In this document: positions 17,881-50,695 of the stretch, in pieces | How the letters are laid out: each line of letters starts with the position of its first letter | Position numbering within the stretch: the first letter of the stretch is position 1 | Origin: Closterium sp. NIES-65 | Lineage: Eukaryota; Streptophyta; Zygnematophyceae; Desmidiales; Closteriaceae | Length of the DNA: 64,000 nucleotides | Direction: 5' to 3' | NCBI GenBank assembly: GCA_948144175.1 | Contig: CANXME010002192.1 | Coordinates: forward strand, 2,542,001-2,606,000 | The notes under the pieces: model-generated | What the model was told of the DNA's origin: nothing | The model's input: the letters and a program-made list of their open reading frames with translations, nothing else | Databases searched by the model: none | Position numbers and translations under genes: made by a program

Positions 17881-20800
17881 AGCTACCCTCCTTTCCGTCT
17901 CATTGCATTTGCTCGAGCAAACACTTTCCTGGAAATATCCGTCAACATTTTCTGCACCCCCTTGGGGTCCTTGGCGCCCAAATTCCCTTCCACGGGCTTC
18001 CCTGCCCACCCGCCCGCCGCACTCCCCACCGCCTTCCCCCCCTCACAAAACGCCAAATAATACTCAATCTCGCAGATATCCGCCAGCTGGTGGAAAATCA
18101 CATCCGGATTCTCCACGGGGCGAATCTCCAGCACGGCGGATCCGGGCGGCATGAAGACAATATCGGCGAGGATATTATCGTGCACTGATACCATGAGGAG
18201 CGCGCGGTTGAGCAGGTCTTTTCGGCGGGGGAGGGAGATGGAGCCTTCCCGGTAGATGACGACTCGCTCGGGGGGGAAGAGGCGGGTGAGGTGCTCGTGT
18301 AGCTTGAGGCTCTGCAGGAGGGATGCGCGCTGCTCCTTCCACCCCAGCAGCACCACCCAGTTGCTGCCGGGCGCGTATGCGCGTGGTGTGTAGGCCGGGG
18401 TGGCACTGGCAGGTCCCTTGAACCTGGACGTCCAGTCTGGTGGGGAGAGGAGAGGGGCGGGGAAGAGCACGTGGTTGAGGGGGGGGGAGATGGAGCCTTC
18501 TCGGTAGCATAGGCGCATGGTGTGTTGGCTGGGGTGGCAGGTCCCTTGAACCTGGACGTCCAGTCTGGTGGGATGGCGCACGCACGTGGGATGTGGTGTG
18601 AAATAAGTGTTTATGTTTTGAGCACTTTCCTGAAGTGGCTCAACAGGAAAGGATCATCATCTCAAGGTCTGGGATTGAAGGGAATGATGTTCAACGTAGA
18701 TAGTCTAGAGTGTCGTTACCTTACAGGCCAAACACCCCTCATCCTCATATCCTGAATCTGAAACCTTCACCCCGCCCAACTCCACCACCATGGTCACCCC
18801 AAAACCACACCTGTTTTGAGTCGACTCAAAACACACCTCATCCTCAGATCCTGCGTCTGACACCTTCACCCCACCCAACTCCACCACCATGGTCACCCCA
18901 AAAACCACACCTGCCATGCCCACAAGCCCCCCCACCCCTAGCCTGTAGCCTCCACCTCCTCTCTCCTCGATTCCCCGCCCCCCCATCCCCCCCACCCCAC
19001 CCTCCCACCCCTCCCCCTTTCTCTTTGCGCGCCTTTTTTCAGTGGAAGCCCCCCCCCTCCCTTCACTCGCCCTGCTCGTACCAGCATTAAAGATGGGCAG
19101 CCCCCCGGGCGGCAGCAAGTGTCTCATTCGCAGATAGTGCCAAAGCGAGCGGCTGGGCTCCCCACACCGCTGGTGCAGTGGCTGGGAAAGGGAGGAGAGG
19201 GGAGGGGAGAGGAACGGAGGGGAGGGGAGCGGACGGGACAGGAGGGGACGGAGGGGAGGTGAGGGGATTGGAGGAAGGGGAGGCAAAGGGAGGGGAGACA
19301 GGGGAGGGATGGGGTGAGATGATGCGGAAGGGAGCGAAACAGGGGAGTAGCGTGGGGAAGGAAGGGGGGAAATGAAAGAAGGGGGAGGCAGGGTGCCAGG
19401 GAAAGCCACTTCCACTCACAATGACGAGCTTCTCAGCGAAAAAGAATGAAGATTGTGAGCCTCGACCACACTCACGCTCATCCTGTCCCCTTGCACTCCC
19501 TGCCCATCCTCCACTCCCTGCCCATCCACCACTCCCTGCCCATCCTCCACTCCCAGCCCATCCTCCACTCCCAGCCCATCCACCACTCCCAGCCCATCCA
19601 CCACTCCCAGCCCATCCACCACTCCCAGCCCATCCACCACTCCCAGCCCATCCACCACTCCCAGCCCATCCACCACTCCCAGCCCATCCACCACTCCCAG
19701 CACATCCACCACTCCCAGCACATCCACCACTCCCAGCACATCCACCACTCCCAGCACATCCACCACTCCCAGCACATCCACCACTCCCAGCCGATCCACC
19801 ACTCCCAGCCCATCCACCACTCCCAGGCACCAACTTTTCGCAGGAACTCAACCACACCCTCTCCCTTCTCCCCTTCCCCTTCGCAACCCACTCACAATGA
19901 CGAGTTTCTCTGCAAAGAACAGTTCCTTGGACTTGACCACGTGCACGTTCATTCTGTCCACCCGCACTTTCAATGACCACCTGTTGAGGCACCTCAAAAC
20001 ACCCTCCCATCCCCTCCCGTCTTCCCTTCCCCTTTGCACCCCACTCACAATGACAAGCTTTTCAGCGAAGAACAGGTCCTTGGCCTTCACCACGTGCACG
20101 TTCATTTCGTCCACCTGCACGCCCAGCACATCCACCGCCTCCCCCGTGTTTTGAGACGGGCATCCACCGCCGCCCCCGTGTTTTGAGACGGACATCCACC
20201 GCCTCCACCGTCTCAAAACACTTCTTCATCCACCTGCACGCCCAGCACATCCACCGCCTCCCCCATGCCATGCATGCTCCCCCACACCCACCCAGGCCAC
20301 CCCCAACCCCCACTCACAATGACAAGTTTCTCTGCAAAGAACAGGTCTTTCGACTTCACCACGTGCACGTTCATTTTGTCCACCTGCACGCCCAGCACGT
20401 CCACCGCCCCCAGCGAGCACAGCTGCTCCAATCCGTTCCTCACATGCGGCCGCCTGTGCCCCACCGCCACTGGTACGCCCCTCATAGCCGGCAGAATGCG
20501 GTGCAGAGAGATGAAGAGCGGTATGAGGTCGAGCAGCATGGCGCGCGTGGACCAGGCGAACCAGTCGACGAGGGAGACAAGCTCTTTGAAGTGGGTGACG
20601 CGTGTGCGGTTGGCGGTGTAGCGGAAGGGCAGCGTCACGGTGATGTTGGGACTGCCCGCACACGCGTTGTGGTCAAAGAGATGGGTGGAGTTGAACACCT
20701 GGCCCACCACGTTTATGTACACGTTGCGCAGAACTAGGACCTGTGGGGGTGGGGAAAGGGGTGGGCGGGCGGGGGGGAAAGGAAGGGGGTTGAAGATGTG

Positions 20801-21924
20801 CGTGGAGTTGAACACCTGGCCCACCACGTTTATGTACATGCTGCACAGCACCAGCACCTGTTTGGAGCGGGAGGGAGTGGGGGATGCATGATTGGGGGCA
20901 GCCCCGCATGGGATTGCAGAGGGGAATGAAGATGTGTTGTGAGTTAAGCACATGCCCACGTTTAAGTACACGCTGCGCAGCACGGGGAACTGGTGGGGGT
21001 GGGGGAAGAAGGGGGGGGGCGGGGGGGGAAAGGAAGGGAGTCGAAGCTGTGCGTTGAGTTGAACACCTGCCCAACCACGTTTAAGTACACGCTGCGCAGC
21101 ACGAGGAACTGGTGGGCGTGGAAAAAGAAGGGGGGGGAGGAGGGAATGAGAAGAAGATACATGCATAGATATGCGAGGAGGATCAGCAGCCACTCCAGGT
21201 CATTCTTCTGAATGCACGTCGGGTCCACCTCCTTGCAATTCACAGAGCACCTCACCCAGCCAACCCCATTCCCATTCCCCCCTTGTCCCCCATCCCCCGC
21301 CTCCCTCCATCCCTTCCTCCTCAGCACCCACCTGAGCGGATCACTTGTTGTGCGGCAGCAGGTCATTCTTGTGAATGCACGCCGGGTCCACGCCCTTGCA
21401 GTTCACAAAACTCCTCACCCAGCCCTCCATCCATCCCTCCTACCCACCTGAGCGGACCACTTGTTATGCGGCAGCAAATCATTCTTCTGGATACACGTCG
21501 GGTCCACGCCCTTGCAGTTCACAGGAGGCCGCGTGGCCGCCCGCTTCTCATCCGCGATCCCTGCCTCCCAGCACGACCCAATCCCAGGGAACCGCTCGAA
21601 CCCAAACTCAAACACCGGGCAAGCCGGCCCTCTGGACGCCTTGGGAGGCTCCAGACCCGCTTTAGCGGCGGTGAGTTGCGCCTCTTCGTTGTAACGAATC
21701 ACGTCTAAGAGGACCGGGTAGAGCTCCGGTTGGGAGATGTTGGTCTGGAGCCGAGACTTGGAAGGAGGGATCCAGGAGAGGACGAAGCTGCCGTTGATTG
21801 GTGCCCACCGGGCTGCCGGACCTGGATGCAAGGTCCGGGGTTTGGTTGGTTTCAGAGGGTTGGGTGCGGATGATGCGCTGTGGCTAGTGGTGCTGCTGTC
21901 ACCATCCCTGCCGTCACTGATGCC

Positions 21925-21962
<38 letters not shown>

Positions 21963-24041: not shown

Positions 24042-27000
24042 TCAGAAGTACTCAAACTTATACCGTCGAAACGCATCCGGCCCACGCTCCTCATACTCCT
24101 TCCGACTCACAGCCTGCCGCAGCAATCTCCTCCCATCCCCAGCCATGGCTGCCGCTCCCCTCCACGCATCCCAGAACACATCCCGGGCTTCCACAATCTT
24201 TATCCCACTCCCCATTGGCAGCACCTGCCGATACTCCGCCTCCAACCTGCCCCTCATTCCGGGCAGCAGCGAACTTCCTCCGGTCAGGAAGAGAAAGCTC
24301 GGCGGAACGTTTTCCATGCCCGAAACAGCAGTGGCAACCGCAAAAGCACCACTAGCTGACTTGGTTCTAGAATACAACGGGACTAGTCTGCTCCTTAGCT
24401 CCTCGGCCGTTCTTCTCACAGCTGCACCCAAACTTTCGCCCAAGCCTGCCCGGTCCAGCCCAATCAGAGACGGCTCGAAAATAATTTCAGCTGCCCGGAC
24501 GCGCTCCACGCCGAGCCGGATCTGATAGTCTGCGTCGGTGGGCTGCCGAACCGAAGGTCCGGGAACGCTGGTAGCCGTGCCTGGAGCTGTGGTTGAAGCA
24601 GGCGCGGCATTGATGGAGACTAGGAAGGCTGGGTCCACCTCCTGAGAGAGACAGGGGGCCGTCGGGGGCGAATGGGGAATGGGGAATGGGGGACAAATAG
24701 GGGATGGGAATGACCGTTTCCCTGTAAAACTCGTAGTGGAAAAAGCATGGAACTAGGCCACATCACATGCACACTGCACCTACACCGTCACCCCAGTGAA
24801 TCCCCTATCTCGTGCCCACTTCCTTCACCATTCCTGCACATTGCCTCACCTGCACCCCCCCTCACCTGCACCCAACCTCACCTTCACCCCACCCTGAATT
24901 GCACCTGCTGACAGCCCTCACTCTCACCTGCAGCCTGGCTCTCAGCTTCTCCAGCTCTGCTGCCTCCCTCTCCGCCTCCTCCTCCTCTTCCTCCTCCACG
25001 CCCTTAGCGCTCATCCTCTTATACACCAGCCAGTCCTCGTCAAACATCCCAAAATCACCTGCAGCCTTTCACTCACCTGCACCCAACCCCCACCCTCACC
25101 TGCAGTCTGCTTCTCAGCTTCTCCAGCTCTGCTGCCTCCCTCTCCGCCTCCTCCTCCTCTTCCTCCTCCACACCCTTCGCGCTCATCCGCTTATACACCA
25201 GCCAGTCCTCGTCCCTCATCCCAAAATCATCCTCCTCCCCTGCTCCCCCTCCTCCTTTCCTCCCTCCTCCACCCCCTCCTCCACCCCCTCCCCCTCCTCC
25301 TCCCTTCCCTCCGCCCGCGCCTCTCCGCCCTTTCTTACTCTCAAAAGCAGCAGCAGTCAGAAGCTTCATCCTCTCCCTGTGCGCAGCAGTAATCCGCTCC
25401 GTTCTCCCACCAGCCACACTACCAGCAAGGCCCCCTCCCAGCCCCACGCCAGTGCCCCCTGCAAGGCCACCAGCAGGGCCCCCCAGGGGGGTGATGTCTA
25501 GCTTGGCGCCCTTCACAGCCTGGCCTGACGCGGCCGCTGCTGCCGCCGCTGCGAGAGAGAGCACAGACGAGACAGCGGAGCCTGAAACCCCTCCTCCTGA
25601 AACCCCTCCTCCTGCTCCTGCTGCACTCGCTGCCGTTGCTCCTGCTGCTCCTCCTGCTGCCCCTGTTGCCGCTCCCGCTGCCCCACCTCCTCCTACCGCT
25701 TCTCCCCCACTGGCACCTCCTTCCGATCCCATGCCCTTCCCACCAGACTCTTCCCCTCCCACTGAAGGCGACGCCGCAGCGGCACCAAGAACCACGCCCC
25801 CTGCTCCCAGCTTCCTCCGCTTCCTCTGCTCCAAGGCCGCCTGCACCTGTTGGAATCGCGCCTTCAACTCTGCTGCATATGCCTCTGGGTTCTCCCTGCA
25901 ATGGAAACGAGAAGCAAGAAGCAACAAGCAGACGGGAGCACACTGAGGGACCAAGCTGTTAACCATCCCTCCGCTACCTCTGCTCCAGTGGCGCCTGCAG
26001 CTGTCGGAACCGCGCCTGCAGCTCTGCTGCATATGCCTCTGGGTTCTCCCTGGAATGGAAACGAGAAGCAACAAGCAAGAAGCAGACGGGAGCACACTGA
26101 GGGACCAAGCCGTCAACCATCCCTCCGCTTCCTCTGCTCCAAGGCCGCCTGCAGCTGCTGACACCGCGCCCTCAGCTCCGCTGCATACGCCTCTAGCAGA
26201 AGCCAACGCAAGGAGGAGACACACAAGTGAAGTTGGTGAATAGGATCGGATCCCCCCAGCCCTGCTGCATGCAGCAATCTAATCTAATCTGCAACGCCTG
26301 CCCAAGCTTCTCACCAGTGCTCCATCTCCCTCTTTCCCACTTGGTTCATCCCCGGCCCTGTTTCACCTCCTCCCTCCTCCCCAGCGCAATCTTGAAGGGA
26401 GTTTTTGAGAATTCTCGAAAACTCCCTGTTTCCATCCTCCCTCCTCCCCAGCGCAATGTTCGAGGCGCCTCAGAAATAGGCCTGCAAAGCTTCTCACCAG
26501 TGCTCCCTCTCTCTCTTCCGCACTTGGCTCATCCCCGGCCCTGTTTCCATCCTCCCTCCTCCCCAGCGCAATATTTGAGGCACCTCAGAAATACGGCCTA
26601 AATCCTGCCCATCCGCTCGCCTCACCTTCTCTTCCGCTCCTCTTCATCCCTCTCAGCAGCCGCCTTAGCTCGCTTCTCCTCTGCTGCCTGTCGCATCCTC
26701 GCCTGCCCCAGCGCAATCCCTCGCATCGTCCGCTGCCGCCGCTTCTCCCTCAGCTGCCATGCAAAGCCGAATGCAGAAAAGGGTGAGAAAAAAGCTAATA
26801 GATATCCCAGAACGGAAAGACTAGAGGGTGGAGGGATGAGAAGGTATGGAGAGATGAATCGAGGATGCAGGAAAAGAGGGAGGGAGAACCCTACAGGACC
26901 ACGAAAAGTGAGGAGAAAGGAGGACCCTACAGGACCACGAAAAGAGAGGAGAAAGGAGGAGTGAGCAGCAAGATGAGAAACGGAAGGGCATTCGTTTTGC

Positions 27001-30000
27001 TCACCTCCTCGGCCTGCCCTCATTCCCCTCACCTCCTCTACTGTCAGTTCTGCATCCGGGACATCCAGCTGCACCTGTCGGTGGTACACCACTGACTCAT
27101 CCTGCTCTGTTGATTGAGCCAACTCACCACCTCTGCGCCCCAACTTCTCCTCCCACCTCGTCTGCTCTCAAACCCCTCCTCACACCTCCTCGGCTGTCAG
27201 TTCTGCATCCGGGATATCAAGCAGAGGGTACGGTACAGCACCAACTCATCCTGCTCCTATGAGTCGACTCTCACTGCACCACCTTACCTCCTTTGCTTGC
27301 CAGGTCACTCCTCTCTCACCTCCTCGACCGTCAGTTCTGTATCTAGGACATCAAGCAGACGGTACAGCACCGACTCATCCTGCTCCTCCTTTGAGTCGAT
27401 TCGAAGTTACTCACATCAGCTCTTTTTTCACCTCCCCTCTACCCTCACCTCCTCTCTCCTCTCACCTCCTCAGCCGTCAGATCTGCATCCGGGATATCAA
27501 GCAGAGGGTACAGCAGCGGCTCATCCTGCTCCTCCTTTGAGTCGATTCGAAGTTACTCACATCAGCTCTTTTTTCACCTCCCCTCTACCCTCACCTCCTC
27601 TCTCCTCTCACCTCCTCAGCCGTCAGATCTGCATCCGGGATATCAAGCAGCGGGTAAAGCACCGACTCATCCTGCTCCTCTGCTCCACCAGCCACTGACC
27701 CCGTCTCCCCCTCCTCCCCTTCACCCTCGCCCTCCTCGCCCTCCCCCTCGCCCTCCTCCCCCCTCAGTCTCCTGAGAGTGGCCATGCTCTTGGCAAGCTT
27801 GGCTCGAGCTTCTGACAGGGTGGCACAGCGCACACGGGAGAGCAACTGAAGGTGTGGGGAGAGAGAGGAGAGAGGGGGGAGGGAGGACGGAGGAAAGGGA
27901 GGAGGCAGACGGGAGAGAGGAGGCAGAGGGGAGAGAGGAGAGGGTAATGGGATGTTGGAGGCGGGGGGAAGGGAAGGAGAAGGGAGGGCGGAGGGTCGGT
28001 GGGGTGAGACAAAGCGAGGCTTCAGTCAGATGTAACTGGCAACTACTACTTTTGAGACGTCGCAAAACAGGAGCTTCTCCATACGTGACTGGCTGGTGCT
28101 CTCTCTTCATTGAGACGAATCTTGAGGCGCCTCAAAAGTCGCCTCAAAAGTCTTTTCCATACGTGACGAGCTAGTGCTTTTTATTGAGACGAAGAGCACG
28201 GAGAAGCTCCTCAATTGAGAATCATACGGCTGATCTCAAACACTCACCATGATCGCCTCTCTCCCTTCCGCCCCGTCCTCCACATCTTCGATCACCGCTC
28301 TCAACCCCTCCACCTCGCCCTCCACCTCCTCCAGCTCCGCCGCCCGCTTCGCCGCCCGCTTAGCAGCCGCCATGTCTCGCAGCCGCTGCCCCGCGCGCTC
28401 CTTGTTGGCCGCCCGCCTCGCCACCTCCTCCTCTGACGGGCCCTGTGGGGCCACGGGCGCCACCCACGGCAGCTGCCAGGAAACTACTGGGGGGTCTGGA
28501 GACTGTGTGGTGTGGGGGGTGGGGAGGAGGTGAGGGGGTGTGGAGGGAGGGAAGGGAGGGGAAGATGTGTGGGTTGTGGTGGTTTTTGAGTGGGCTCAAA
28601 GAGGGAGGGTGTGTAAGTGCACGGCAGCACGGGTATGCCATGCGCGCTCCTTGCTGCACGGCAGCACGGGTATGCCATGTCTCTTATCTCTTAGACGCTG
28701 CCCCGCGCGCTCCTTGCTGGCCGCCCGCCTCGCCACCTCCTCCTCTGACGGGCCCTGGGGGGGCACGGGCGCCACCCACGGAAGCTGCCAGGAAACTACC
28801 GGGGCGTTTGGGGACTGGGTGGAGGAGGGGTTGATGGGATGGAGGGAGGGTAAGGGAGGGAGTATAAAGGGCTTTAATGGCTGCTATTGCAGGTTCTGAA
28901 GGGTGTCTTCGTTTCCAGGCATGCTTGCTGTCGGAGCAAGCGTGCAATTGTGTGTGCATGGAACACGCAAAGATGGGCATGTGCATGGCGGGACAGGATG
29001 GATGTGACATGTGCATGACGGGACAGGATGGATGTGACATGTGCATGCATGCTGTCGTTACTGAAGAGTCATTAGAACGAACCTCCAGGGTCATTTGAGT
29101 GTCACTCAACGAATGACCGTCCCACCCTCCACAACCGTCCACAACCATGCACAACCATGCACAACCGTGCACAACCGTGCACAACCGTGCACAACTGTCT
29201 CACCTGGAATGCCTTCACTTCTTGCGAGTAGTCAATGGCTGCATACACACTCCTGCACTTCATCTACTTGCTCTCCCATCCCATGCATGAATGTCAGATA
29301 TTTAGGCGCCTTGACATTTACCTGATGGTCACTCACCTGGAATGCCTTCAATTCCTGCGAGTAATCAATGGCTGCATACACACTCATGCACTTCATCTCC
29401 TCTGCTCTCTCCCACGTTATTACAGATCTGTGGTGACATGTGTGATGTGGCATGACAGAGTGACGTGGCATGACAGAGTGACATGGCATGAGAGGTTGAT
29501 GTGGCATGACAGTGTGTTTGCATGCCTGTGAGAGAGTGCGTGCATGCATGTGTGTGTGTCCGTCCGTGTGCGTGCGCGCGTGTGTTTGTGTGCCTGTGCG
29601 ACTGTGTGTATGAGTTTGTGTGTGAATGAAACATTTTGCCATGAAAGCTGGGATCAGGTCATACAAGACCGTGTTTGAAACCGGCACACAATGCACTCCT
29701 GTGACCTGCCAACGATTGATGAAACACTGTGTGCGGTGCGACCACAAAGCGTTGCAAAAAGGTACAGAGTGGTGCACGGATTGACATGCCATGAGGATAT
29801 CACCTCAAGCAGAGGAAGAATGTAAAAAAAAAAAAGGAAAAACAATCGAAGGACAAATGAAGGGTGGGGTGAGGGAGAGGGGTGGGGTGGAGGTGGGGAC
29901 GGGGGAGGTGAGATAAGAAGGCAGTGAAGAGGGGACAGAGGTGCCTCGCCTGAGCTGTGGGGCACGTACGTGTGTTGAGGATAGAGCAGAGTGAGAAGGC

Positions 30001-32936
30001 GTTTCAGGTAGTCAGTGACGTGCCATCCGCCAACGGGAATGCGACACGTGGCGTCCAGCAGAGGCTGCCCTGCGATCATCTGCCTGCACATGGAGCCACA
30101 TGGTAATGCACGATTTGTTCTTGATGGCAGCAGAAAAAAACACGATATAGCAAGCAAGCAAGCAAGCATGCATGCATGCATGCATGCATGCAGGCAGGCA
30201 GAGCAAGTGGTCCAGCCAGGGTCACAAGCTGTGAATCTGAGTCACGAGCCTCTGTGAATCTGAGTCACGAGCCTCTGTGAATCTGAGTCACGAGCCTCTG
30301 TGAATCTGAGTCACGAGCCTCTGTGAATCTGAGTCACGAGCCTCTGTGAATCTGAGTCACGAGCCTCTGTGAATCTGAGTCACGAGCCTCTGTGAATCTG
30401 AGTCACGAGCCTCTGTGAATCTGAGTCACGAGCCTCTGTGAATCTGAGTCACGAGCCTCTGTGAATCTGAGTCACGAGCCTCTGTGAATCTGAGTCACGA
30501 GCCTCTGTGAATCTGAGTCACGAGCCTCTGTGAATCTGAGTCACGAGCCTCTGTGAATCTGAGTCACGAGCCTCTGTGAATCTGAGTCACGAGCCTCTGT
30601 GAATCTGAGTCACGAGCCTCTGTGAATCTGAGTCACGAGCCTCTGTGAATCTGAGTCACGAGCCTCTGTGAATCTGAGTCACGAGCCTCTGTGAATCTGA
30701 GTCACGAGCCTCTGTGAATCTGAGTCACGAGCCTCTGTGAATCTGAGTCACGAGCCTCTGTGAATCTGAGTCACGAGCCTCTGTGAATCTGAGTCACGAG
30801 CCTCTGTGAATCTGAGTCACGAGCCTCTGTGAATCTGAGTCACGAGCCTCTGTGAATCTGAGTCACGAGCCTCTGTGAATCTGAGTCACGAGCCTCTGTG
30901 AATCTGAGTCACGAGCCTCTGTGAATCTGAGTCACGAGCCTCTGTGAATCTGAGTCACGAGCCTCTGTGAATCTGAGTCACGAGCCTCTGTGAATCTGAG
31001 TCACGAGCCTCTGTGAATCTGAGTCACGAGCCTCTGTGAATCTGAGTCACGAGCCTCTGTGAATCTGAGTCACGAGCCTCTGTGAATCTGAGTCACGAGC
31101 CTCTGTGAATCTGAGTCACGAGCCTCTGTGAATCTGAGTCACGAGCCTCTGTGAATCTGAGTCACGAGCCTCTGTGAATCTGAGTCACGAGCCTCTGTGA
31201 ATCTGAGTCACGAGCCTCTGTGAGCTGATTCCTCAGTCCACCCAAAAATGACCACACGCCAGCCCAGCTGGGAAGTTGGCAACGAAGCAGAGGAGGGGTG
31301 AGGGAGCGAGCGAGATAGGGGAGGTGCAAGAGCAAGAGAGGGGGGTTGAGGGAGCAAAAGAGAGAGTGCAGGAGAGTGAGAAATACAGGGTGAGAGAGTG
31401 GAGAGAGGGCAGCAGGAGCACACGGGCATGACATGAGTGGTGGAGTGGCCGCAGTTGACCAGCAGACCGTCCGGCACAGAGTGGTGCTGTGCGGTGTTGA
31501 GGCGATAGCTGAACACCCCATCCACTCCGAATGCTGCAAGGGTGCAGGGCAGCCGATGCGGTGGAGAGGGGTGGGATGGGATGGCATGAGATGCGAGTGG
31601 AGCATTGGAGACGAGATGAGGGTATGAATGAGGCTCATTGGAGAAAAGGGTATGAGACCACTGGAGACGCTTTCAGTGAAACATGAGTGTGGAAGGATTG
31701 AGGACGGGAGGGGAGCGGAAGATTGGAGAGGAGTGGAGAGGAGTAAAAGTTGAGCAATGCAAGGCGAGGTTGAATGGTAAGCAAGGCAGGTGGGACATGG
31801 TGTGACAAGACATGACATGATATCCAAGTGACGCCCTGGCAAAGCACACAAGCTGACACACCTCTAGCAACAGACGGACACCAGAACACTCTCCAAACAC
31901 CCACGCACGAAACGCCCCATCTCACTCCCCACCCCTCCACACAACACCACACCACACCACACCACACCACACCACACCACACCACACCACACCACTCCAC
32001 ACCACTCCACGGCAGGGATGCTACAACTGTATGTATTGTCTTACCAAGGGCAGGCACGCCGTAGGTTTCAAACATGAGTTCTGCTGTCTTGCCACGCGTG
32101 TACAGGGGCGCACACGGAGCCTCGGTTAATAACACAGGGTGGTTTACCCTGCCACCGCCTTCCACCCCCAATCGATCAAAAGCGTAATCAAAGATCTGCG
32201 AAGTAAGGAGGAAAATCATGAAAAGAGGGGCGGGGGGGAAGGGGAGGGGAGGGGAGGGGAGGGGAGGGGAGGGGGAATGGACGCAGAAGTAAAGGGGGAG
32301 AGGGTGAGGGAGGTGATGCGTTTTGGGGCGACTCAAAGCACGTGAAGGAAGTTGTCTTTTGAGTCAACTCAAAAGGCGACTCAAAGCACGTGAAGGAATT
32401 TGTCTTTTGAGTCGACTCAAAAGGCGACTCAAAGCACGTGAAGGAATTTGTCTTTTGAGTCAACTCAAAAGGCGACTCAAAGCACGTGAAGGAATTTGTC
32501 TTTTGAGTCGACTCAAAAGGCGACTCAAAGCACGTGAAGGAATTTGTCTTTTGAGTCGACTCAAAAGGCGACTCAAAGCACGTGAAGGAATTTGTAAACG
32601 AAAGGGACGACCGCGGGATCGAGGACAAGAGTTGAGAGGAGAAGAAGGGGGTTGATCACAAACATATGGCAATCGCAGCGCTGTAGGAAGATAGATAGTG
32701 TTCCATCTATTGCAAGAGGGTTGGGTTGGGGTGCTTTTGAGAATTCTCAAAAACACCCTGCAGCAAGAGGGTTGGGGTTGGAGGGGACAGCATAGGTCGA
32801 GGGGGGAGGGCGAGGGTGGAGGGGGCGGAGGGGGGAGGGGAGGAAGAGCAGCAAGCGAGAGGCATACAAACGCATTCCATGAGCTCAAAGGGCGAGAGGG
32901 AGGAGAAGCTATAGATGACGTTAAACTCAAAAGGGC

Positions 32937-33029
<93 letters not shown>

Positions 33030-33216
33030 CCCCAATGAGCGAGGGGCAGCTGTATCAGTTGATAGAAGACCCCTCCGGCCATTAGGGCCGGGCGGGGAGG
33101 GGGGGGCTGGGGCTGGGGTATTGCGGGGTTAGCTGTTGTTTTGCTGTAGCCTTGCTGCGAGATTGCTGTAGCCTTACCATGCGTGTACCTTGCTGACATT
33201 AATACCAAGGACCGTT

Positions 33217-33300
<84 letters not shown>

Positions 33301-36300
33301 GAGAGAGAGAGGATTAGCCTCTCCCCTTCTACCCTCTGCCCTCTGCTTTCTGCCCTCTGCCATGACTACTTAAGGTCACGGCGGCCTCTCCATCTCTCAT
33401 TCTTTCAGTTAGCGCTGAAAATCTTTCCACTTAAGTCGCAGCACTACTTGCCCCGTCCCGCCTTATAGCCTTCGCCAAACCAGGGGGGGGGGTACGTCCC
33501 ATTGCGATTGGAGAGTCATTGCTTAGGCTGGCGGCTAAGGTGGCGCTCTCAGATCTGCAAGGAGAAACGCGAAATTTTTTCCTACCTCAGCAATTTGGCG
33601 TGGCAGTCCTTGGAGGTGCAGAATTTGTCATCCATGCTGTCCGAGACCTCACCACGGTGCAGCCCTCCAGCCTAGTACTCCAGCTCGACATTGAGAACGC
33701 GTTCAACTCAGTAGAGAGGAGCGCGTTCTTCAACGCACTCATCGGCTCCCCACTAGCTCCCCTAATCCCCTTCACATGCTCTTTCTACGCAGCATCTTCA
33801 CCACTGCTGCTGGACCCATGCTTCAATTCCACGGCACTCACCAGCGGAAGGGGAGTCAGACAGGGGGATCCCCTCGGACCTCTGTTATTCGCAGCGTCTA
33901 TCCAGCAGCACCTCAGGCACGTAGCAACGGAGCACCCCGAAGTCACGGTCCTCGCTTACGCGGACGACATAACCATGATTGGACCCGCGGCGGCGACGCT
34001 GGAAGCGCTCAGGGAGCTCACGCCGCTGCTGGCACGGGACGGTCTCACCTGCAACTTTAGGAAGTCGTCGGCGTGGTCCACCGTGCCGCTAGGAGGGGAC
34101 GTACTCCCCGAGGGCCTTCCCCTCACCCGCGAGGGGGTGCGGGTGTTGGGAAGTCCAGTGGGGTCGCAGAGCTTCTGCTCTGATTTTGTCCGCAGCACCC
34201 TGACGGACGCGGCAGCCCCCTTGGGCTCTCTGGCGTCCATCCACCCACAACACGCCCTCCTGCTACTGTCTCGTTGCATCAGCCGCAGAGTCGGCTACCT
34301 GCTGCGCACTACCCCAGCTGACGTCTTACCGCTCTCGGAATGGCACACATGGTGCGCCGAATTACTGAACACTGCCTTGACCGCCGCCAGCATTCAACCG
34401 CCACGCCGACAAGCCGAGTTCAACTTCCTTCTCCGACAGGCAACTCTCCCAGTAGCCCTAGGCGGACTGGGCCTTACGGACCCCACAACTGAAGCAGCAC
34501 CGGCCTACCTGGCATCTACAACAGAGGCGCTGCGCCTGCTCCGCTCCCTGGACTTACCGGCAACCGCGCCGCTAGGGGCCGACAGCAACGCCCTGCAGCC
34601 GTCTGCAGCGCACTCCGTGACCATCCAGGACATGGAGGGGCGACTGCCACCGCTGGCGCTACAAAACCTACGGGAGGAGCAGCAAACCCCGTCCCAGGAC
34701 CAGCTGCAGCGCGCCCTCTCCCAGGAAGTGCACGCGGCAAAGGCTGACGCCCTAAGAGAGGAGTCACGCGCAATACAGTCAGCCCCCGAGATGGGCCACA
34801 CACTCCGCCTAGTCAGCCTGAGAGGAGAGGGAGCGGGAGCGTGGCTGCAGGCACTACCCTTGATTGACCCCGGACCTCTGCTTCTCACCGGGACAGTTCC
34901 GAGCGGCCCTGGCCTTCCGCATGGGCATCCGACAGAATGTACCAACCGTGTGCGAGTGCGGAGAACTCGTAGCCGACTGCAGCCTACCCAACCACTTACT
35001 CCGCTGCAGCACAGGCCCCAACAGGACGCGCACACACAACCAGCTGGCCTTCGCCATGGCTAAAATGGCGAGGGAGGCGCAGCTGGTGGTATACCTGGAG
35101 AATGCGATGTACTCACCTCCGGATGACCCGAAGAAGGCAGATGTGATTGTACAAGACCCGGACAGTGGAGAGACCTGGATCACAGACACCACGATCACTG
35201 ACCCTGTGCTGCAGAACCGAGACCCTACGGCCCGCAAACCCCCAGGTTGGGCTGCAAGGGAGGCACAGAAGCGGAAGGAGAGGGACTACTACCGACACAC
35301 TGAACACGTGGTGTTCTGCGCCCTGGCCGTCGAGACCTATGGGGCAAACGCGCCCCCCACGACGGCGTTCCTGAAACTGCTGGCCACAGCAGCAGCTAGG
35401 AACCGCTTCAGGGCCAGCCCCTTGGCGAAATCCGCCAAGAAGATGGCCTACCACTTCAGCCAGCGCTGGTCAGTGGCCCTCCAGCGCTCCCAGGCGAACG
35501 CCCTGCACACCAAGGCCAGGGCTGGGATTGAGGCAGCACACCCCCAGATGGCAGCGGACCCCTGGCCGCTGCACCTGGGGGACATCCTCCACACGCTGGA
35601 GGGCTAGAGGGTCACTCAGGGGGGAGGGGAGGGGAAGAGGGGTGAGTTGATGGGCTTATGGGATTGAGGTTATCATGGATAGAACTGCATGTCTGTACCC
35701 CTGCTGAATTAATACAACAGACCATTTGAGAGGGTAGAGAGGGCGGAAGAGGAGCGAGGGAGGGTGGTCGTGTGTGGAGGTCAAAGGAAAGGGGGGCCAT
35801 ACGCATCCCATGGGCGCTCGAAGTTGTTGATGACTCTGGTTGGACTCAAAGGGTGATCGAGGGATAGTGAGGGAGGGCGAGGGGGGGAGGACAGGAAGTT
35901 GGTGAAGGCCATGCCATACATGAGCATTCCATGAGCTCGAAGTTGTAAATCACGTTGGACTCAAAGGGGGAGCGAGGGATAGGGAGGGGAGGGGAGGGGA
36001 GGGAAAGAAGCGAGGGAGCGAGGGCAGCAAGTGGGTGGCTGGCGGCCATACGTACGCATTCCATGAGCTCGAAGTTATAGATGACGTTGGACTCAAAGGG
36101 CGATCGGATGCTCTGCCGCCCAAACTCCAGCGTCCTCAGCGCCGGCCACGCGGGGTCCCAGTCGCCCACCACTGTCACCTGCGAGCCTGGCGTGGAGGGG
36201 TGTGGTGGGGTGTGGAGGGGTGTGGTGGGGTGCGGTGGGGTGTGGTGGGGTGTGGTGAGGCATGGTGGGGTGTGGTGGGGTGTGGTGGGGTGAAACGGCT

Positions 36301-38303
36301 TGCAGCAGGAAGATGGAAGTGAGTTGTGGTGCAGAGCGATGGCGAGGAGATAGGCGACACGAGCATGGGGAGGGAGGGGTGTGATACCAGTCGCCCACCA
36401 CCGTCACCTGCGAGCCTGGCTGTGAGGTGTGGTGGAGATGGGTCAGCATGGGCAAGGAAAGGGGGCTGCTGGGGAGTGGCGGTGGGGTGAAGGAACATAG
36501 GGAACTGAGGGGTCCCATCCCATCCCAGGCGCCCACCACTGTCACCACCGTCCCATCCCATTCTGGCAGTAGGTTGAGGTGGGGTAGGGGTGACTTATGA
36601 TTAATAATTATTATTATTATTATAAAAAAAATCTGTACAGTGATGTGAAGTGAGGGAGGAGGAGAAGAGGAGATGACGAGAATGGGCGGCGCAGCACAGC
36701 CTCTCACTTCTCATCCTCTCACACTCTCCCGCCCCTCCATCCTCACCCCCCTTTTCCACCTGCCGTGCCCGCTCCACAGTCCACGGTCCACCCTCACCCC
36801 CATTCTCCCCCGGCCCCCCGTTCCCCCCTACCCCCTCATCTTCCCACCCCCACCGCTCACCCCAGTCCTCCCCGCTCACCCCCGCTCATCCCTCCTCACC
36901 CCACCGCTCACCCCCGCTTATCCCCCCTCGCCCCTGCTCGCCCCCGCTCGCCCCCGCTCACCCCCGCTCACCCCCGCTCACCCCGCTCACCCCCGCTCAC
37001 CCCCGCTCACCCCTCGCTCACCCCTGCTCACCCCTCGCTCACCCCTGCTCACCCCCGCTCACCCCCGCTCACCCCCGCTCACCCCCGCTCACCCCCGCTC
37101 ACCCCCGCTCACCCCCGCTCACCCCCGCTCCTAGGCCGCGGACGCCCCACGACGCTCCTGAAGTCCACCCGCGGATCCGCCTCCCCGCCCCACCTGCGCG
37201 CATGGCAGACGTGGGGGAAACGGGGGAGGGGGGAGGGGGAGGGAGGAATGAGGAGAGGAGAGACGGGTTGGGGATGCAACGAAGAGAGGGGTCGGCAGAA
37301 GAGGAATGGTGACAAGGTACGAAGCGAGGGGGGTTGGAATGGAATCGAGGGGCTATAGCGACGCGAAAGAATTGGAACAATGGTGGGGAACCGTTTGAGG
37401 CGCCTCAAAAGGAGGCTATAGCGGAAAAATGGTGGGGAAAAGGAATGGAGGGAGGGTGGGGGTGAGGGGGAGGGGAAGGGGAAGGGAGTGAGGGGGAGAG
37501 GGGGGTTGTTGCATTGGAGGGAGATAGCAGCAGACGCCACCGGGAATTCCCAATGCCGCCTTACTTATTCCGCCTTACTTATTCCGCCTTTCGCGTAACC
37601 TGAGTTGACTATGGGAACCACCCATCCTAGGTAACACCTACCCTCGATAACACCTGCTCCAGTGAACGCCTATCCCGAGACTATTCCGCACCTATTCCGC
37701 GCCTAACCCGCGCCTACCCCGCGCCTATCCCGCGCCTACCCCGCGCCTAACCCGCGCCTACCCCGCGCCTAATCCGCGCCTACCCCGTGCAGCACCCGCC
37801 CTATTCGGCAGCGGTGCGAGCCATTGTCGATGACCACGAACGAGTCCTAGGTAACACCTGCCCTGGTTAACACCCATCTTCGGTAACACCGGACTTCAGG
37901 GAAAACCCACCACCCCGGACGGCACCCACCCTATTCGGCAGCGGTGCGAGCCGTTGTCGATGACCACGAACGCGTCGCTTCTGCCCGCGTATTTTGCGCG
38001 ATAATCGCCGCAACGAGCGGGTCGCTCAAGCACCCCGCCTCCCCCTCCTTCCCTGCCTCTTCCCTCGCCGCCTCTTCCTTGTCGACCACCCCGATCGCGG
38101 AAATCGCGGTAGTCGCCTCCGTCATTCCCGCCGCCATCGGCTCCACCATTGCTTCTACGCCCGCGATCGGCGCCGCTCCGCTTCCCTAAATACCGGTCGG
38201 CTCCCCATTCGCCGAACTGCAGCACCACGGACGAGCCGCGGAGGGTTTGCGATCCGTCAGCGGCGTCGGAAAGCGTCGAAGCGCGGGTAGGTACGGGAGT
38301 CAT
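24042..38303 (-). CDS. ARP5: Actin-related protein 5 (INO80 chromatin remodelling subunit)
   Basis: Twelve exons fit the ARP5 family in order: 38303-37930 (VVIDNGSHRCRIG), 37193-~37130 (PRVDFRSVVGRPR), 36178-36056 (VTVVGDWD, SPFESNVIYNFELME), 32195-32045 (FDYAFDRLG, NHPVLLTEAPC), 31533-31422 (FGVDGVFSYR, NCGHSTTHV), 30083-29970 (CRIPVGGWHVTDYLKRLL), 29427-29337 (ITWERAEEMK), 28502-28248 (SWQLPWVAP, KERAGQRLRDMAAAK), 27845-27612 (LLDIPDADLTAEE), 26753-26626 (LREKRRQ), 25895-25100 (NPEAYAAELKARFQ, HRERMKLLTAAAF, DEDWLVYKRMS) and 24641-24042 (IIFEPSLIGLDRAGL, FLFLTGGSSLLPGM, stop). Nearly all joins keep frame with GT-AG ends. ARP5 acts in the nucleus in nucleosome sliding by INO80. Exon 1 and exon 11 carry Gly-rich expansions. 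The exon 2 donor is unclear. Introns hold a LINE, a satellite and many exon decoys. Confidence 0.88.
24930..25060 (-). repeat. Decoy copy of the 3' end of ARP5 exon 11
   Basis: The segment encoding EDWLVYKRMSAKGV and the following Glu run and LEKLRARLQ is present twice (24930-25055 and 25100-25225). The outer copy sits in the intron before exon 12 and could serve as an alternative exon end, since it keeps a CAG|GTGAG donor. Confidence 0.8.
25940..26205 (-). repeat. Two decoy copies of the 5' part of ARP5 exon 11
   Basis: A ~150-bp unit including the acceptor and EAYAAEL..RFQ..QAALEQ coding is present three times (about 25820-25960, 25970-26110, 26120-26200). The innermost is continuous with the rest of exon 11. 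Confidence 0.8.
26340..26600. repeat. Threefold repeat with 30-bp and shorter palindromes
   Basis: CCTCCCTCCTCCCCAGCGCA recurs three times, each copy followed by a different palindromic core: a 30-bp near-palindrome at 26397-26426 centred on GAGAATTCTC, then TTCGAGGCGCCTCAGAA near 26459, then TTTGAGGCACCTCAGAA near 26574. It lies in the ARP5 intron between exons 10 and 11. Confidence 0.8.
27011..27545 (-). repeat. Four decoy copies of the 3' half of ARP5 exon 9
   Basis: Copies at about 27020-27110, 27180-27260, 27310-27400 and 27465-27545 each read QDESVLY..LDIPDADLT-like on the minus strand and keep the donor. The intact exon ends at 27612. Three copies break off at GAGTCGACTC (27258-27267) or TTTGAGTCGATTCGAA (near 27390 and 27534). 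Confidence 0.82.
28050..28192. repeat. Palindrome cluster with direct repeat in ARP5 intron 8
   Basis: TTTTGAGACGTCGCAAAA (28050-28067) and TTGAGGCGCCTCAA (28122-28135). The segment CCATACGTGACTGGCTGGTG at 28079 recurs diverged at 28157, each copy ending near TTGAGACGAA. Confidence 0.8.
28380..28820 (-). repeat. Duplicated 5' part of ARP5 exon 8 flanking TTTTGAGTGGGCTCAAAG
   Basis: 28380-28505 (true exon 8) and 28692-28820 (decoy) are direct repeats encoding SWQLPWVAPV and KERAGQRL. The imperfect palindrome TTTTGAGTGGGCTCAAAG lies between them at 28584-28601. The decoy stops mid-exon at CGTCTAAGAG. Confidence 0.8.
29120..29512. repeat. Exon 7 decoy and short tandem repeats in ARP5
   Basis: A copy of the 3' part of exon 7 (29212-29275; true exon 29337-29427) keeps the donor but loses the acceptor end. 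Next to it are ACAACCRTGC repeats (29130-29195). On the other side lie ~17-bp GTGGCATGACAGAGTGA repeats (29447-29510). Confidence 0.7.
30231..31222. repeat. 23-bp satellite array, ~43 near-identical copies
   Basis: Head-to-tail 23-bp unit containing GTGAATCTGAGTCACGAGCC (then TCT). I saw no variant copies, which implies recent expansion or homogenisation. There are no spacers, so it is not CRISPR. It lies in the ARP5 intron between exons 5 and 6. Confidence 0.95.
31938..31998. repeat. (ACACC)n microsatellite
   Basis: Pentamer repeat in the ARP5 intron between exons 4 and 5. Confidence 0.85.
32327..32595. repeat. 48-bp tandem array built on an 18-bp palindrome (5.6 copies)
   Basis: Five exact-length 48-bp units plus a partial one. 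Each ends in TTTTGAGTCRACTCAAAA (core TCGA in three copies, TCAA in two), followed by GGCGACTCAAAGCACGTGAA. It lies in the ARP5 intron between exons 3 and 4. Confidence 0.95.
32712..32776. repeat. 18-bp palindrome flanked by a 14-bp direct repeat
   Basis: GCAAGAGGGTTGGG at 32712-32725 and 32763-32776 flank TTTTGAGAATTCTCAAAA (32735-32752), a perfect palindrome extended by GGGTG/CACCC arms. Confidence 0.88.
32941..33296. repeat. Two long (AG)n microsatellites
   Basis: GAGAGA tracts at about 32941-33026 and 33217-33296. Between them is mixed sequence. They lie just upstream of the LINE fragment. Confidence 0.95.
33435..35607 (+). mobile_element. 5'-truncated LINE with RT and restriction-like endonuclease, antisense in ARP5 intron
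   Basis: The plus strand encodes a LINE-type reverse transcriptase starting inside the domain (KPGGGVRPIAIGES near 33480), with GVRQGDPLGPLLFA (near 33850) and the catalytic AYADD (33955-33969). A frameshift near 34875 moves to a second frame ending at TAG 35605-35607. That part holds a Cys/His finger (CECG ... NHLLRC) and a restriction-like endonuclease (KADVIV ... TDTTITDP). RT followed by a C-terminal RLE is typical of the R2/NeSL-like LINE groups, which usually insert at specific sites. An in-frame TAA at 33432 marks loss of the N-terminus. No poly(A) tail or target duplication was found. Confidence 0.85.
35815..35975 (-). repeat. Decoy copies of the 3' end of ARP5 exon 3
   Basis: The exon end encoding SPFESNVIYNFELMEC is repeated at about 35925-35970 and, more diverged, 35805-35855. 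A third relative lies at 32868-32935 near the microsatellites. True exon 3 is 36056-36178. Confidence 0.75.
36185..36555. repeat. GTGTGGTGGG repeat and acceptor-side decoys of ARP5 exon 3
   Basis: A GGGGTGTGGT-type repeat spans 36195-36295. Copies of the exon 3 start with acceptor (TCGCCCACCACYGTCACCTG) recur near 36385-36410 and 36525-36550. Confidence 0.75.
36880..37131 (-). repeat. 10-bp array of splice-donor-like words after ARP5 exon 2
   Basis: On the minus strand GGGGGTGAGC repeats about twenty times (strictest at 36950-37131). Every unit contains G|GTGAGC, a good plant 5' splice-site match, and the array abuts exon 2. Confidence 0.85.
37349..37439. repeat. Direct repeat flanking a GCGC-core palindrome
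   Basis: GGCTATAGCG ... AATGGTGGGGAA at 37351-37390 and again at 37414-37438 flank TTTGAGGCGCCTCAAA (37394-37409). It lies in ARP5 intron 1. Confidence 0.8.
37680..37850 (-). repeat. CCGCGCCTA tandem words and decoy end of ARP5 exon 1
   Basis: CCCGCGCCTA-type 12-mers repeat at 37690-37795. CTATTCGGCAGCGGTGCGAG at 37800 duplicates the true exon 1 end at 37930. Confidence 0.75.
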
Positions 38304-41905: not shown

Positions 41906-44268
41906 CTGCACCGGCTCACCTTTTTCCGTCCCCTTAAGTTGTGGGATGGTTGCTTACTAGCCTTGGAAGGCATGATGGCAAGGCATTTATAGTTCTGTAT
42001 AGTGTTCTTTTTGGGGTGTGGGGTGGGAAGGGGGGAGAGTAGTATGCATAGAATTTACGTTTTATTTTGCAGGTGGGAGGGAGTTTTCGAGCAGCAACCA
42101 GCTACTGGTTGAGCTTGATACAACCTTTGCCTGGGGGCAGGGGGGTGAGAGGACGATTACTGGAGATATTGTTTGTCGTCCTCTTAATGAAAATCCAAAC
42201 ATCTATTTGCAGCTTTTTTATGTCACATATGTTCCCTTAATGCTTTGTCACAACTCTTGAAGAGGAGTGGCTGATAAGTTGGTGGGATGACAAGGGGTGG
42301 CAGAGTGGCTGGCACCACTTCCAGTCAGCAGGGTTTTGAGCAAACGTTCAACTCACTTTGATCAGATACAGTTAATTTGGGGAAAGGCAGAAGGAAGATG
42401 ATATTAGTTCCGCGGCAGAAGGGAGTGGGGGGCCAGGGGGTTGCCGAAGAGGAGGGGAAACTGGAGGCATTCTATCGGTCCCACAACCCAAATTCCCAAT
42501 TTGAAACAGCTGCCTTGACGCGCATGGGGTTTGTCTGCGCTTGTTTGGCCGCTGTGCTACAGTAAGCGCAAGAGAGGAACCCTCTGGTCAGCCCGATTTT
42601 TGCACGTGGAGCTGCTTCGAACCGTGGAAGGTGGCGATAAGGTTTGTCGAAATCATCCAATCAACGCGCTTCAGGGGTTCGCTTTCATGAGCTCCCTGGA
42701 CCAATTCCATGAGAAGGGGGCGTGGCATGGGATGCCGACGGCGTGTCCGCCTGACACGCGTGCCCCTCACATCTGAAGCCACTCCGCCAACCGCCATCGC
42801 GTGCCAGGGATGGTCGGACGACGTTCACGACGTTCGCGAACAGATGGATCACTCCGAACATTTCCAATTAAAATCGCTCTCAACCAATCAAAAGGTACGA
42901 TGAGTTGAAGGGCCGCGCCGCTGCATGGCTCTGTATTTGTTCCTCATTTCAAGCAGGATCCACCCACACGTCAACACCCGGATCCGCGTAAGTAACCAGT
43001 CGCTTCACACGCTCCCGCACCAACGAATCCATTTTTGCCTGATTGTGCGCCCATGTTCCGGTCCGGACCGGAGGTATGGTCGTGGTGGGAGATGGAAGCC
43101 TCAGAACAGACCACAGGCACACGTGCACCAAGGGCGTTCCTGGTCTGGGAACAGAGCTCTCGGTATCAGGGTAAACATCCTGATTCTCAGGTACATTACG
43201 TATGTTTTTCCAGTGAATCCTGATTCATCAGGATTGCGTTAAATATTTCCGGATCATTTCCGGATGATTTGGCCGAGCATTCGGGTCTTTCAGTATTGTT
43301 TCGATAACCATACTGAGTTATTAGCTCGGTACTAGTTTCTGTGTGGGGATGTCGAATGCAATCAGATATGATGTAAGTGTTAGGTTTGTTAGTCCCTGCC
43401 CATCTGACTTGGGCGTTTAAGAGCCTCTTGCGCCTAAGGTGATGAACCGCTGATGTGCGTTTTCGGATTTTGGGAAAAACACATGGACGAGGAAGGGAAA
43501 CTTTCGAGGGATTGCTGATTCTTCAGGGTCTTTTCTCAGGGGAGCCCGGAGCCTTCCGTGCTTTCAAAAACGAAAAATTTGCCCTGTCTGGGAACCAGCG
43601 CAAGTCGAACACATGTGCTCTGGTAGAGACGCTCATCCAACCACACCACGTTTGGCTTGGTGTTGCCCGTCCCTTGGCTTGGGCGCAACCATGGTGCTGC
43701 TGTGGTATGGTTTCCAAGCGACCGCGTGCGGCTCGACCGTTGTTTTGTGGCCCCGAACCACAGCAATACGATGGACGATAACCTTCCCACTGTTGCACCC
43801 CGAACTCCCAACTCCCAACTCTCCCAACCCCCACGGCATAGGTAATCCCTCCCTCTGAACACCAGGAAGTAGAAGGAATCTATTGCTAGTCGGAGACTTG
43901 ATCAGTATTTTGGACGCTCGACTGTCGGAGACTTGCGATCAGTAGCTCCCTCCTCTCCTTCCTAGAGGGAAGTCCCCAACCGCAGTATCATTTAGCCTCT
44001 TCCTGATTTACTGAAAGCCGGTTCTCCCATTCCTGTCTTCAACGTCCCGCAATGGATTCGTCTCGTTCACTGGGACTAGAAGCAGACTGTGCGCTCTCGC
44101 TTGGTCCCATGTGGCTATCCCAGGACAGTCTTGAGAGAAGGTCAGCATATACGCAGTCATGATGTCCAGATAATCTGGTCCAGTTCGGCCTTGTTTTGAT
44201 GCATGTGACTTCAAATGATTCACTATCATCTTTTCCTCCTGCGTTATTCGTCCCCGTTGCCTCGGCAG
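41906..44268. other. Region between bHLH genes A and B
   Basis: Contains the 3' flank of A and must contain the promoter and first exon of B, which I could not place. Short self-complementary words (CCTGATTCATCAGG at 43218-43231, TTTCCGGATCATTTCCGGAT at 43247) and a repeat of GTCGGAGACTTG (43890 and 43924) are seen. Confidence 0.4.
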
Positions 44269-45396
44269 TCCAGATCCCGCTGCTAGACAACACTCGAACG
44301 ACGGCTTACCGCCTTCTAGAAAACGGTAAGATGTTCTTTTGTTGCTGCTTTGTTTGGTTAACGCTTGAACGTTGTGTTTTATTCAAAGAATGGGTTACAA
44401 TGGGAGCTTACTTGTCCGTTCGTGTCGATTCTTCTCGTGCAGGGTTCGGGAAGATGGTGCTAGTGAGAGAGAAGTTGTTTTCAGCAAAGCATCCAGGGAG
44501 AAGTTGCGACGCGATAGATTAAACGACAGGTACAGTTTATCGATCCTATCTCCAATCGCTGTGCACGCAGTCCATCTCTTGTCCAATCGCTTACACGCGG
44601 CCGTCCTTAGTTCCACCTTCGCTTCCACAGTCGTCGGCGGTAGTCCATCAGCAGCGTGTTGAAAGTCGTCGCATGTTTGTCTTCGCCACCCTCAGATTTC
44701 AAGATGACTTTCGAGTCGACTAAGAAGTCACAGCGTGTTGAAATTCGTCGCATGTTTGTCTTCGCCACCCTCAGATTTCAAGAACTTGCTAGGGAGCTTG
44801 GTCCGTCGGCAACCGTTAAGGTGGATAAGGCAGTCATACTGACGGAAGCTGTCCGGTTGCTTGTCCATTTGAGGGCTGAAGCCGCAAGCCTGTTGACGAG
44901 CAACCAACAGCTTCAGGATCAAATCAAGGAGCTGAAGGTACCTATTGTCAGTTTCATACCTTCGTTGGCCTCGAATATTTCTTATCGCCTTTCAAAACCG
45001 CACCATGGTTTTCGCTCACGAGGGCTTCGGTTTCCGCTCTTTCTTTCTCCATGGTTTTCAGTGAGGTGTAACGGCTCTATCCCCTCCCACGTACAGGTTG
45101 AAAAATCCGAACTGAGAGAGGAAAAATCACGCCTGAAAGCTGAGCGGGATCGTCTGCGGATGCACCTCGATACCCTCGCAGCTCCCACTAGGACCAACGG
45201 TTTCTTAGGCCACTCACCAGCTGCAGATTTGCAGCCGCAAACAGCGACGCACGCACCACACCTGGCACATGAAACACCCGTCAAGGTTGAAGCCATGCGG
45301 CTGCCTCACCACCAGCATATGGCGATGTGGCAATGGCTCCCTTCTGGCGTGGCTGATGCATCCGCAGATCGGTTGTTGACGCCACCTGTGGCGTAA
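44269..45396 (+). CDS. bHLH transcription factor, ILR3-like (subgroup IVc), gene B; first exon not found
   Basis: Four exons were recognised: 44269-44325, 44443-44529, 44775-44937, 45097-45396. Phases match gene A (exon 2 starts with the third base of a codon, exon 3 in phase 2). Basic region KASREKLRRDRLNDRF, helix-loop-helix ELGPSATVKVDKAVILTEAV, zipper ELKVEKSELREEKSRLKAE, His-rich tail with MAMWQWLP and the ending DRLLTPPVA, even closer than gene A to the plant IVc ending. The start codon and N-terminus must lie upstream of 44269. A decoy of the exon 4 acceptor with a palindrome sits in intron 3 (44652-44783). Confidence 0.82.
44652..44783 (+). repeat. Duplicated intron 3/exon 4 border of bHLH B with palindromic spacer
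   Basis: 53 bp (44652-44704) repeats at 44731-44783 with one mismatch, including acceptor CCCTCAG|ATTTCAAGA. The 26-bp spacer 44705-44730 is an imperfect palindrome (TGACTT...AGTCGACT...AAGTCA). Confidence 0.93.

Positions 45397-50657: not shown

Positions 50658-50695
<38 letters not shown>

Follow-up and report, generated by a model that had tools for sequence, protein, structure and literature searches.

A dispersed palindrome family between local direct duplications suggests very small mobile elements in the nuclear genome of Closterium sp. NIES-65

We analyzed a 64,000-nucleotide stretch of the Closterium sp. NIES-65 genome (assembly GCA_948144175.1, contig CANXME010002192.1, here C1894:2542001-2606000; hereafter the window), in which short palindromes lie between direct copies of the adjoining DNA. 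The palindromes belong to a family that we term P, TTTTGAG-N4-CTCAAAA, which is 18 bp long when exact. The whole analysis concerns one genome and its assembly sequence, of which 874,075,685 bases in 2400 contigs were searched; L-numbers denote stretches fetched from the assembly, and C-numbers contigs. The window contains 16 matches to P at up to two mismatches, in comparison to 0.14 expected from shuffles, and each site was scored with a centre-based copy test (Table 1). By this test, the matches at 13260 and 26573 have no flanking copies (scores 5 and 6). Of eight sites at which the initial annotation had placed a palindrome inside a duplication, seven have abutting or nearby direct copies and one, at 28584, has none. 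As had been stated, the flanks are indeed duplicated, each site with its own sequence, and the 48-bp array reported at 32327-32595 is present. Transposon-family matches were found in four of the nine window frames scanned: a Copia-like open frame of 1867 aa (49953-55556) with RVT_2, integrase and gag-type domains, a second RVT_2 frame, an RVT_1 reverse transcriptase frame (33435-35060), and a DDE_Tnp_4 frame. We take these to be Copia-type, long interspersed nuclear element (LINE)-type and Harbinger-type genes.

Table 1 Palindromes, inserts and target copies in the window (positions are those of the window).
Feature	Position	Details
Left target copy X1	18730..18813	84 bp
Palindrome P, core TCGA, TTTTGAGTCGACTCAAAA	18814..18831	Measured insert 18814-18828; last bases common to right copy
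Right target copy X2	18829..18913	85 bp
P-like palindrome, core GCAC, 1 arm mismatch	19982..19999	In 46-bp stretch between 107-bp copies 19861-19967 and 20014-20120
Complex insert: two left arms TTTTGAGACGG (20149, 20181), one right arm GTCTCAAAACACTTC	20149..20224	Flanked by 43-bp copies 20106-20148 and 20225-20267, 95% alike; centre-based score only 8
Insert with palindrome, core AATT, arms to AGGGAG	26391..26423	Copies 26356-26390 (35 bp) and 26424-26457 (34 bp)
P-like palindrome, core ACGT, 1 mismatch	28050..28067	No abutting copies found, score 6
Insert with palindrome, core GCGC	28120..28151	Diverged copies 28074-28119 (46 bp) and 28152-28193 (42 bp); weak, score 17
P-like palindrome, core TGGG	28584..28601	No abutting copies found, score 8
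48-bp array, 5.6 copies, 98% matches	32327..32595	P (TCGA/TCAA) and CACGTG 12 nt from TTTTGAG
Insert with palindrome, core AATT	32726..32762	14-bp copies 32712-32725 and 32763-32776; short
Insert with palindrome, core GCGC	37391..37422	17-bp copies 37374-37390 and 37423-37439; 1 mismatch, short
Left target copy	44652..44704	53 bp
Insert, decayed palindrome TGACTTTCGAGTCGACTAAGAAGTCA	44705..44730	
Right target copy	44731..44783	53 bp, 1 mismatch to left copy

A scan of viral contigs with the 18-mer gave hits in at least 120 stretches, which were presumed to be chance matches and were set aside. Exact P was found at 30,327 places in the assembly, whereas the reversed pattern was found at 4 and a version with a six-base spacer in place of N4 at 44. 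This count takes in arrays and near-duplicate contigs; since near-identical contigs carry copies, the number of P sites in the genome is larger than the number of independent insertions. A 264-kb sample combined the window with twenty 10-kb stretches, which were picked by the first listed P places, their flanks playing no part in the choice. At up to one mismatch, the spacer in this sample is four bases in all 89 P matches with spacers of 0-8 bases. A further 14 matches have spacers of 11-19 bases (16 bases in eight of them), and the reversed control pattern has zero matches in the same sample and at the same threshold. Four cores account for 78 of the 89 spacer-4 matches (TCGA 35, GCGC 21, ACGT 17, AATT 5), and eight of the remaining 11 differ by one change from a main core. 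The initial annotation was thus right that the arms are conserved while the 4-bp core varies and is mostly self-complementary. Its view that this is not one dispersed repeat did not hold, given the 30,327 exact places and the longer conserved arms described below. The abundance of P and the specificity of its spacer are far beyond chance, and P is a dispersed repeat family of which only the flanks are local.

Merging P sites less than 200 bases apart gave 70 loci in the 264-kb sample. A duplication was called where direct copies scored at least 14 and came, on each side, to 33 bases or less from the centre, with short-period repeats excluded. Direct repeats flank 30 of the 36 exact-P loci, 8 of 17 one-mismatch loci and 5 of 17 two-mismatch loci, in comparison to 313 of 3000 positions drawn at random away from P. 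Multi-site loci had several tries at this call, whereas lone-copy loci had a single one, like the controls; among the lone-copy loci, direct repeats are present at 17 of 22 exact, 5 of 13 one-mismatch and 5 of 16 two-mismatch cases. The drop with increasing mismatches fits a palindrome and its repeats decaying together. By a second, ungapped method, stretches of 8-60 bases enclosed by direct repeats were found to cover 6887 of the 264,000 bases (2.6%), yet to contain 29 of the 58 exact P centres. The proposed tie between hairpin and local duplication, which hits lacking flanking duplications would have contradicted, therefore withstood the check on 264 kb. Two earlier association scores were superseded: one that 19% of controls also brought to 20 or more, the genome being rich in tandem repeats, and a low-complexity-filtered one whose filter discarded many long copies. 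An assembly artefact, a possibility raised at the outset, is unlikely, because 2.6 kb of the window region recurs at ~100% in another contig, two 97%-identical contigs have versions of one palindrome that are set apart by point mutations, and target copies diverge to graded extents.

Local duplications are not confined to P. Among 167 local X-filler-X structures, in which the filler measured at most 70 bases, 45 contain P (up to three mismatches), 4 are borderline and 118 lack it, indicating that the genome also forms tandem duplications by other routes. How common such P-less duplications are here would suit an order of events in which error-prone repair first makes a tandem duplication and the palindrome is then assembled from local sequence, and the literature documents small tandem duplications that form at staggered breaks in other organisms (PMC8355091). 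However, one and the same palindrome sequence recurs at tens of thousands of sites, with family-specific arms of up to ~38 nt, and we regard this order of events as highly improbable.

Copy pairs were found at 73 sites, arrays included. At 40 of these the copies end before the centre, and after four array-like sites were dropped, 36 loci were measured, comprising 11 selected for GTGAC-P-GTCAC and 25 that form the as-listed set. The insert is 15-53 bp long, and the target copies are 14-94 bp with a median of 32. The ends of the insert vary by locus, from 7 to 30 nt to the left and from 6 to 27 nt to the right of the centre. The two target copies are identical at 10 of the 36 loci, over 14-60 bp, and so some insertions look recent. 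Base counts at the four junction edges revealed no strong target motif at these loci. Insert and target often have 1-3 junction bases in common, perhaps by chance. Symmetrical trimming of a hairpin was considered but gained no clear support, left and right insert lengths not being significantly correlated (Spearman 0.16, p 0.34, 36 loci). Near-equal lengths, differing by at most one base, were seen at 10 of 36 loci (6.7 expected, p 0.11), or at 8 of 25 when the GTGAC-picked loci were set aside (4.4 expected, p 0.04).

Forty precursors were built in silico by joining the upstream and downstream flanks of a site through a single target copy, and were compared with L131-L170 and the window. Paralogues that span both boundaries were found for four of the 40, one of the four being weak; hits over only one boundary are uninformative. 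L137:9308 has two such paralogues, alike, each at 83.5% over 97 columns, L144:9173 has two (89.9% and 83.5%), L138:8980 has one (80.9%), and L149:4758 has the weak one (71%, gapped). These spanning paralogues lack P and have one target copy each. At L137:9308, where the surrounding sequence was inspected directly, a local family includes one member that carries P together with a 60-bp duplication. C1759 was rejected as an empty site for L144:4611, as the palindrome is present there with point mutations. The simplest reading of the empty paralogues would be that palindrome and duplication were gained jointly. Palindromes are known fragile sites, and a pre-existing one might break or stall replication so that repair duplicates the neighboring DNA; the six exact-P loci with no duplication and the existence of target-plus-palindrome arrays would be in keeping with this. 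It is nevertheless an improbable account, since the empty paralogues lack both the palindrome and the duplication, and the measured loci have the form X-P-X with a single P, not X-P-X-P.

Conserved sequence extends beyond P itself. GTGAC-P-GTCAC (core TCGA) occurs at 1013 places in the assembly and its control at 0. CACGTG followed by P 4-24 bases on gave 820 + 773 matches versus 0, many of the listed ones being exactly 12 apart, and CACGTG-N12-TTTTGAG gave 790 + 808 = 1598 matches versus 4 + 2 = 6 for the controls. Among the matches listed, the N12 strings (61 different) have A at position 6 in 95% and G at position 7 in 89%, with a mean pairwise identity of 0.45. Six-base palindromes in 248 non-redundant arms from fetched loci peak 21 bases from the P centre (23 versus 3.9 expected), with a second peak at 45 bases (14). 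An eye count assigned 16 of the 23 to arrays in L140, L142 and the window and 7 to other places, and the 45-base peak likewise comes mostly from arrays. The genome counts are better evidence for the 12-base CACGTG spacing than the array-dominated 21-base peak.

The arm of the TCGA type, CCATGGTAACGAGGTGACTTTTGAGTC, has 46 exact places in the assembly versus 0 for its control. Twenty of these were fetched, among which two pairs look like single loci on two contigs; several run on upstream of the arm as approximately TGTGTCGTGTG, followed by CCATGG. None of the 20 loci has two full arms. The long arm reaches up to ~38 nt, the short arm mirrors it for at most 18 of 27 bases from the centre, and exact 27-mers abut in mirror image at 0 of the 46 places. 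The outer 20-mer CGTGTGCCATGGTAACGAGG occurs at 32 places (control 0), of which 23 abut the inner arm by exact match; the other 9 were not inspected. The sampled TCGA type is therefore polar, with a hairpin end and a long arm that is cut at differing points. From centre to junction, the hairpin-side end measures 7-21 nt at 12 of the 20 loci, and at the other eight the distance is 28-112 nt, with second palindromes or without clean copies.

Such features bring to mind retroposition, in which a LINE-type reverse transcriptase would use a nick to copy an RNA of ~60 nt that ends in a 3' hairpin, the product being strongly truncated at its 5' end and flanked by a target duplication. The one-sided truncation of the long arm, the presence of the hairpin end, the target duplications and the lack of a strong target motif all agree with this, and the window itself has the RVT_1 frame. 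Set against it are the variable hairpin-side end, duplications of up to 94 bp, which would be long for LINE products, and the two long arms of some ACGT-type copies, which would be unexpected. Likewise, we saw no tail, no longer parent copy and no 3' end shared with a LINE, although no dedicated LINE search was made. We consider retroposition unlikely, but a serious candidate.

Agreement between the two arms was scored at loci where each arm runs on for three bases or more past the nine-base half-core. At 10 as-listed loci, the arms agree at 65 of 73 positions within a locus and at 427 of 856 (0.50) between loci, and none of 5000 re-pairings reached the within-locus value. Dropping arms that start with GTC left 7 loci, with 50 of 58 positions in agreement within loci, 0.54 between loci, and 1 of 5000 re-pairings. 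This within-locus match points to fold-back copying, or to a structure maintained by pairing.

Taken together, insertion with target duplication is well supported, and the flanks of P are best read as target-site duplications. We think it reasonably likely that P represents very small nuclear mobile elements, in which a hairpin-ended mini-element is copied into staggered breaks, with fill-in of the overhangs. The initial annotation had pictured a process that copies a nearby segment and leaves, or starts from, a hairpin; the link between the two stands, while the data favor an insertion that brings P over a duplication that builds P locally. The source would be a hairpin-ended molecule of roughly 60 nt, either RNA or DNA. 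Two offset nicks would make the break, and copying would start at the hairpin end and proceed outwards over a distance that varies. Both overhangs would then be filled in and joined, generating the long duplication, so that palindrome and duplication would be gained together as insert and target-site duplication. In the symmetrical palindromes, the short arm may derive from fold-back copying of the long arm, and arrays such as that at 32327-32595 may reflect later tandem amplification of the target-plus-palindrome unit.

Several observations weigh against this explanation. Recombination between the two copies could delete the palindrome and one copy and give the same empty site; such loss is also possible, and the empty paralogues thus fit gain while leaving its direction unproven. 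The 264-kb sample is rich in P because its stretches were chosen where the first listed P places lie, with 220 exact sites per Mb in comparison to 109 in the window and 35 in the assembly. The six exact-P loci that lack a duplication and the 118 duplications that lack P count on the same side. Neither end of the insert is fixed, which means that there is no clean terminus of the classical-transposon kind, and coupled trimming of the hairpin is neither shown nor excluded by the insert lengths. Two long arms are present in some ACGT-type copies (L150:4612, L140:5300, C62:1415207), which restricts the claim of polarity to the TCGA type. Adding the GTGAC-picked loci raises arm agreement between loci to 0.72, as compared to 100 of 113 positions within loci (19 loci). 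Finally, no source gene or autonomous partner was found, a long element with these inverted repeats not having been the object of a dedicated search.

No description of the P family was recognized in the open-licence literature searched, and a description may exist elsewhere. Miniature inverted-repeat transposable elements (MITEs) are short, gene-less and present in many copies, with inverted repeats, fixed termini and a fixed short target duplication. P resembles them in being short, gene-less, inverted-repeat and multi-copy and in having a target duplication. A MITE was rejected, as the terminal inverted repeats of P are not fixed and its target duplication is not of one fixed short length, as the ranges at the 36 measured loci show. 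Short interspersed nuclear elements (SINEs) and other LINE-mobilized RNAs have target duplications of variable length, one-sided truncation, and a tail or constant 3' end. The first two features are also found in P. A SINE was likewise rejected, since the hairpin-side end varies over 7-21 nt at 12 of 20 loci and no tail was seen; in addition, the P inserts are much shorter. Small tandem duplications at staggered breaks have been documented in other organisms, where they are presented as a common source of new sequence whose formation is still under study (PMC8355091). The copies at P loci are as expected from such filled-in overhangs but, unlike the duplications as described there, have a specific dispersed sequence between them (PMC8355091).

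The systems nearest in kind to P include organelle repeats of green algae. Those of Volvox carteri are described as palindromic, ~50 nt on average, hairpin-forming, present in many copies and both orientations, and selfish; they proliferate in mitochondrial and plastid DNA, have TAAA or ATTT loops, and their nuclear copies are judged to be inert transfers (PMC2670323). P is similarly green-lineage, short, hairpin-forming and multi-copy, but differs from the Volvox repeats as portrayed there in being abundant in nuclear DNA and flanked by direct target copies, and "target site" as a term is absent from the text of that paper (PMC2670323). Also among the nearest are the mitochondrial palindromes reported from Lobosphaera (PMC4524435) and the repeats reported as common to the organelles of Haematococcus and of Stephanosphaera (PMC7235400). 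The mitochondrial hairpin elements of Allomyces, yeast and sponges are, like P, tiny and thought to be mobile; those of Allomyces, in the account drawn on here, come without flanking duplications (PMC2800124), whereas P is nuclear and has them at 30 of 36 exact-P loci.

The palindromes might have multiplied in an organelle genome, from which fragments were captured in nuclear breaks, and Volvox organelles and nucleus do have palindromes in common according to the published description (PMC2670323). We give this origin very little credence, since zero P matches (up to two mismatches) were found in 15,927 bases of plastid DNA, which makes a plastid source unlikely. Plastid-type rubisco genes are present in the assembly, their protein matching rubisco large chains over the entire length. 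Mitochondrial contigs were located as well (C155, C241, C311 and C1956). Seven contigs (C40, C75, C97, C162, C824, C1848 and C2174) each have at least two full-length rubisco matches, in both orientations; these contigs are perhaps assembly concatemers of the plastid.

Other repeats were met in the same DNA. Window positions 19855-20389 contain three copies of a 113-nt segment, separated by P-like palindromes; the others are 85% and 77% identical to the first, and by eye the copies resemble repeated exons. Tandem duplications with units of 146-172 bp and no exact P lie at 17690-18031, 24915-25229, 25814-26194 and 27313-27680, and the unit of the last contains a decayed P-like stretch, by eye. 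A 23-bp satellite fills 30229-31223 (43.3 copies, 100% matches). In L140:6185-6450, GCGC-core palindromes form an array with a spacing of mostly 24 bp, a spacing seen again at L142:5031-5096. A different dispersed short repeat of ~82 bp at L144:5472-5552 forms a hairpin with 20-base arms and a 4-base loop (CCTGTTCGGTTCGCCTCGAA-CGTG-complement, then a T run), and has dozens of copies, with 93-99% identity among the scored matches.

We tentatively raise the possibility, to which we give somewhat less than even weight, that a gene-less, hairpin-ended molecule of ~60 nt, entering staggered breaks hairpin end first, constitutes a new class of nuclear mobile element that drives local tandem duplication throughout the genome, genes included. 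With thousands of sites that carry a candidate sequence tag at the junction, it could be feasible to count, date and trace duplication events. Should the mechanism prove correct, P would rank among the smallest mobile elements of nuclear genomes, and a single traceable process would connect the capture of a hairpin with offset nicks and duplication.

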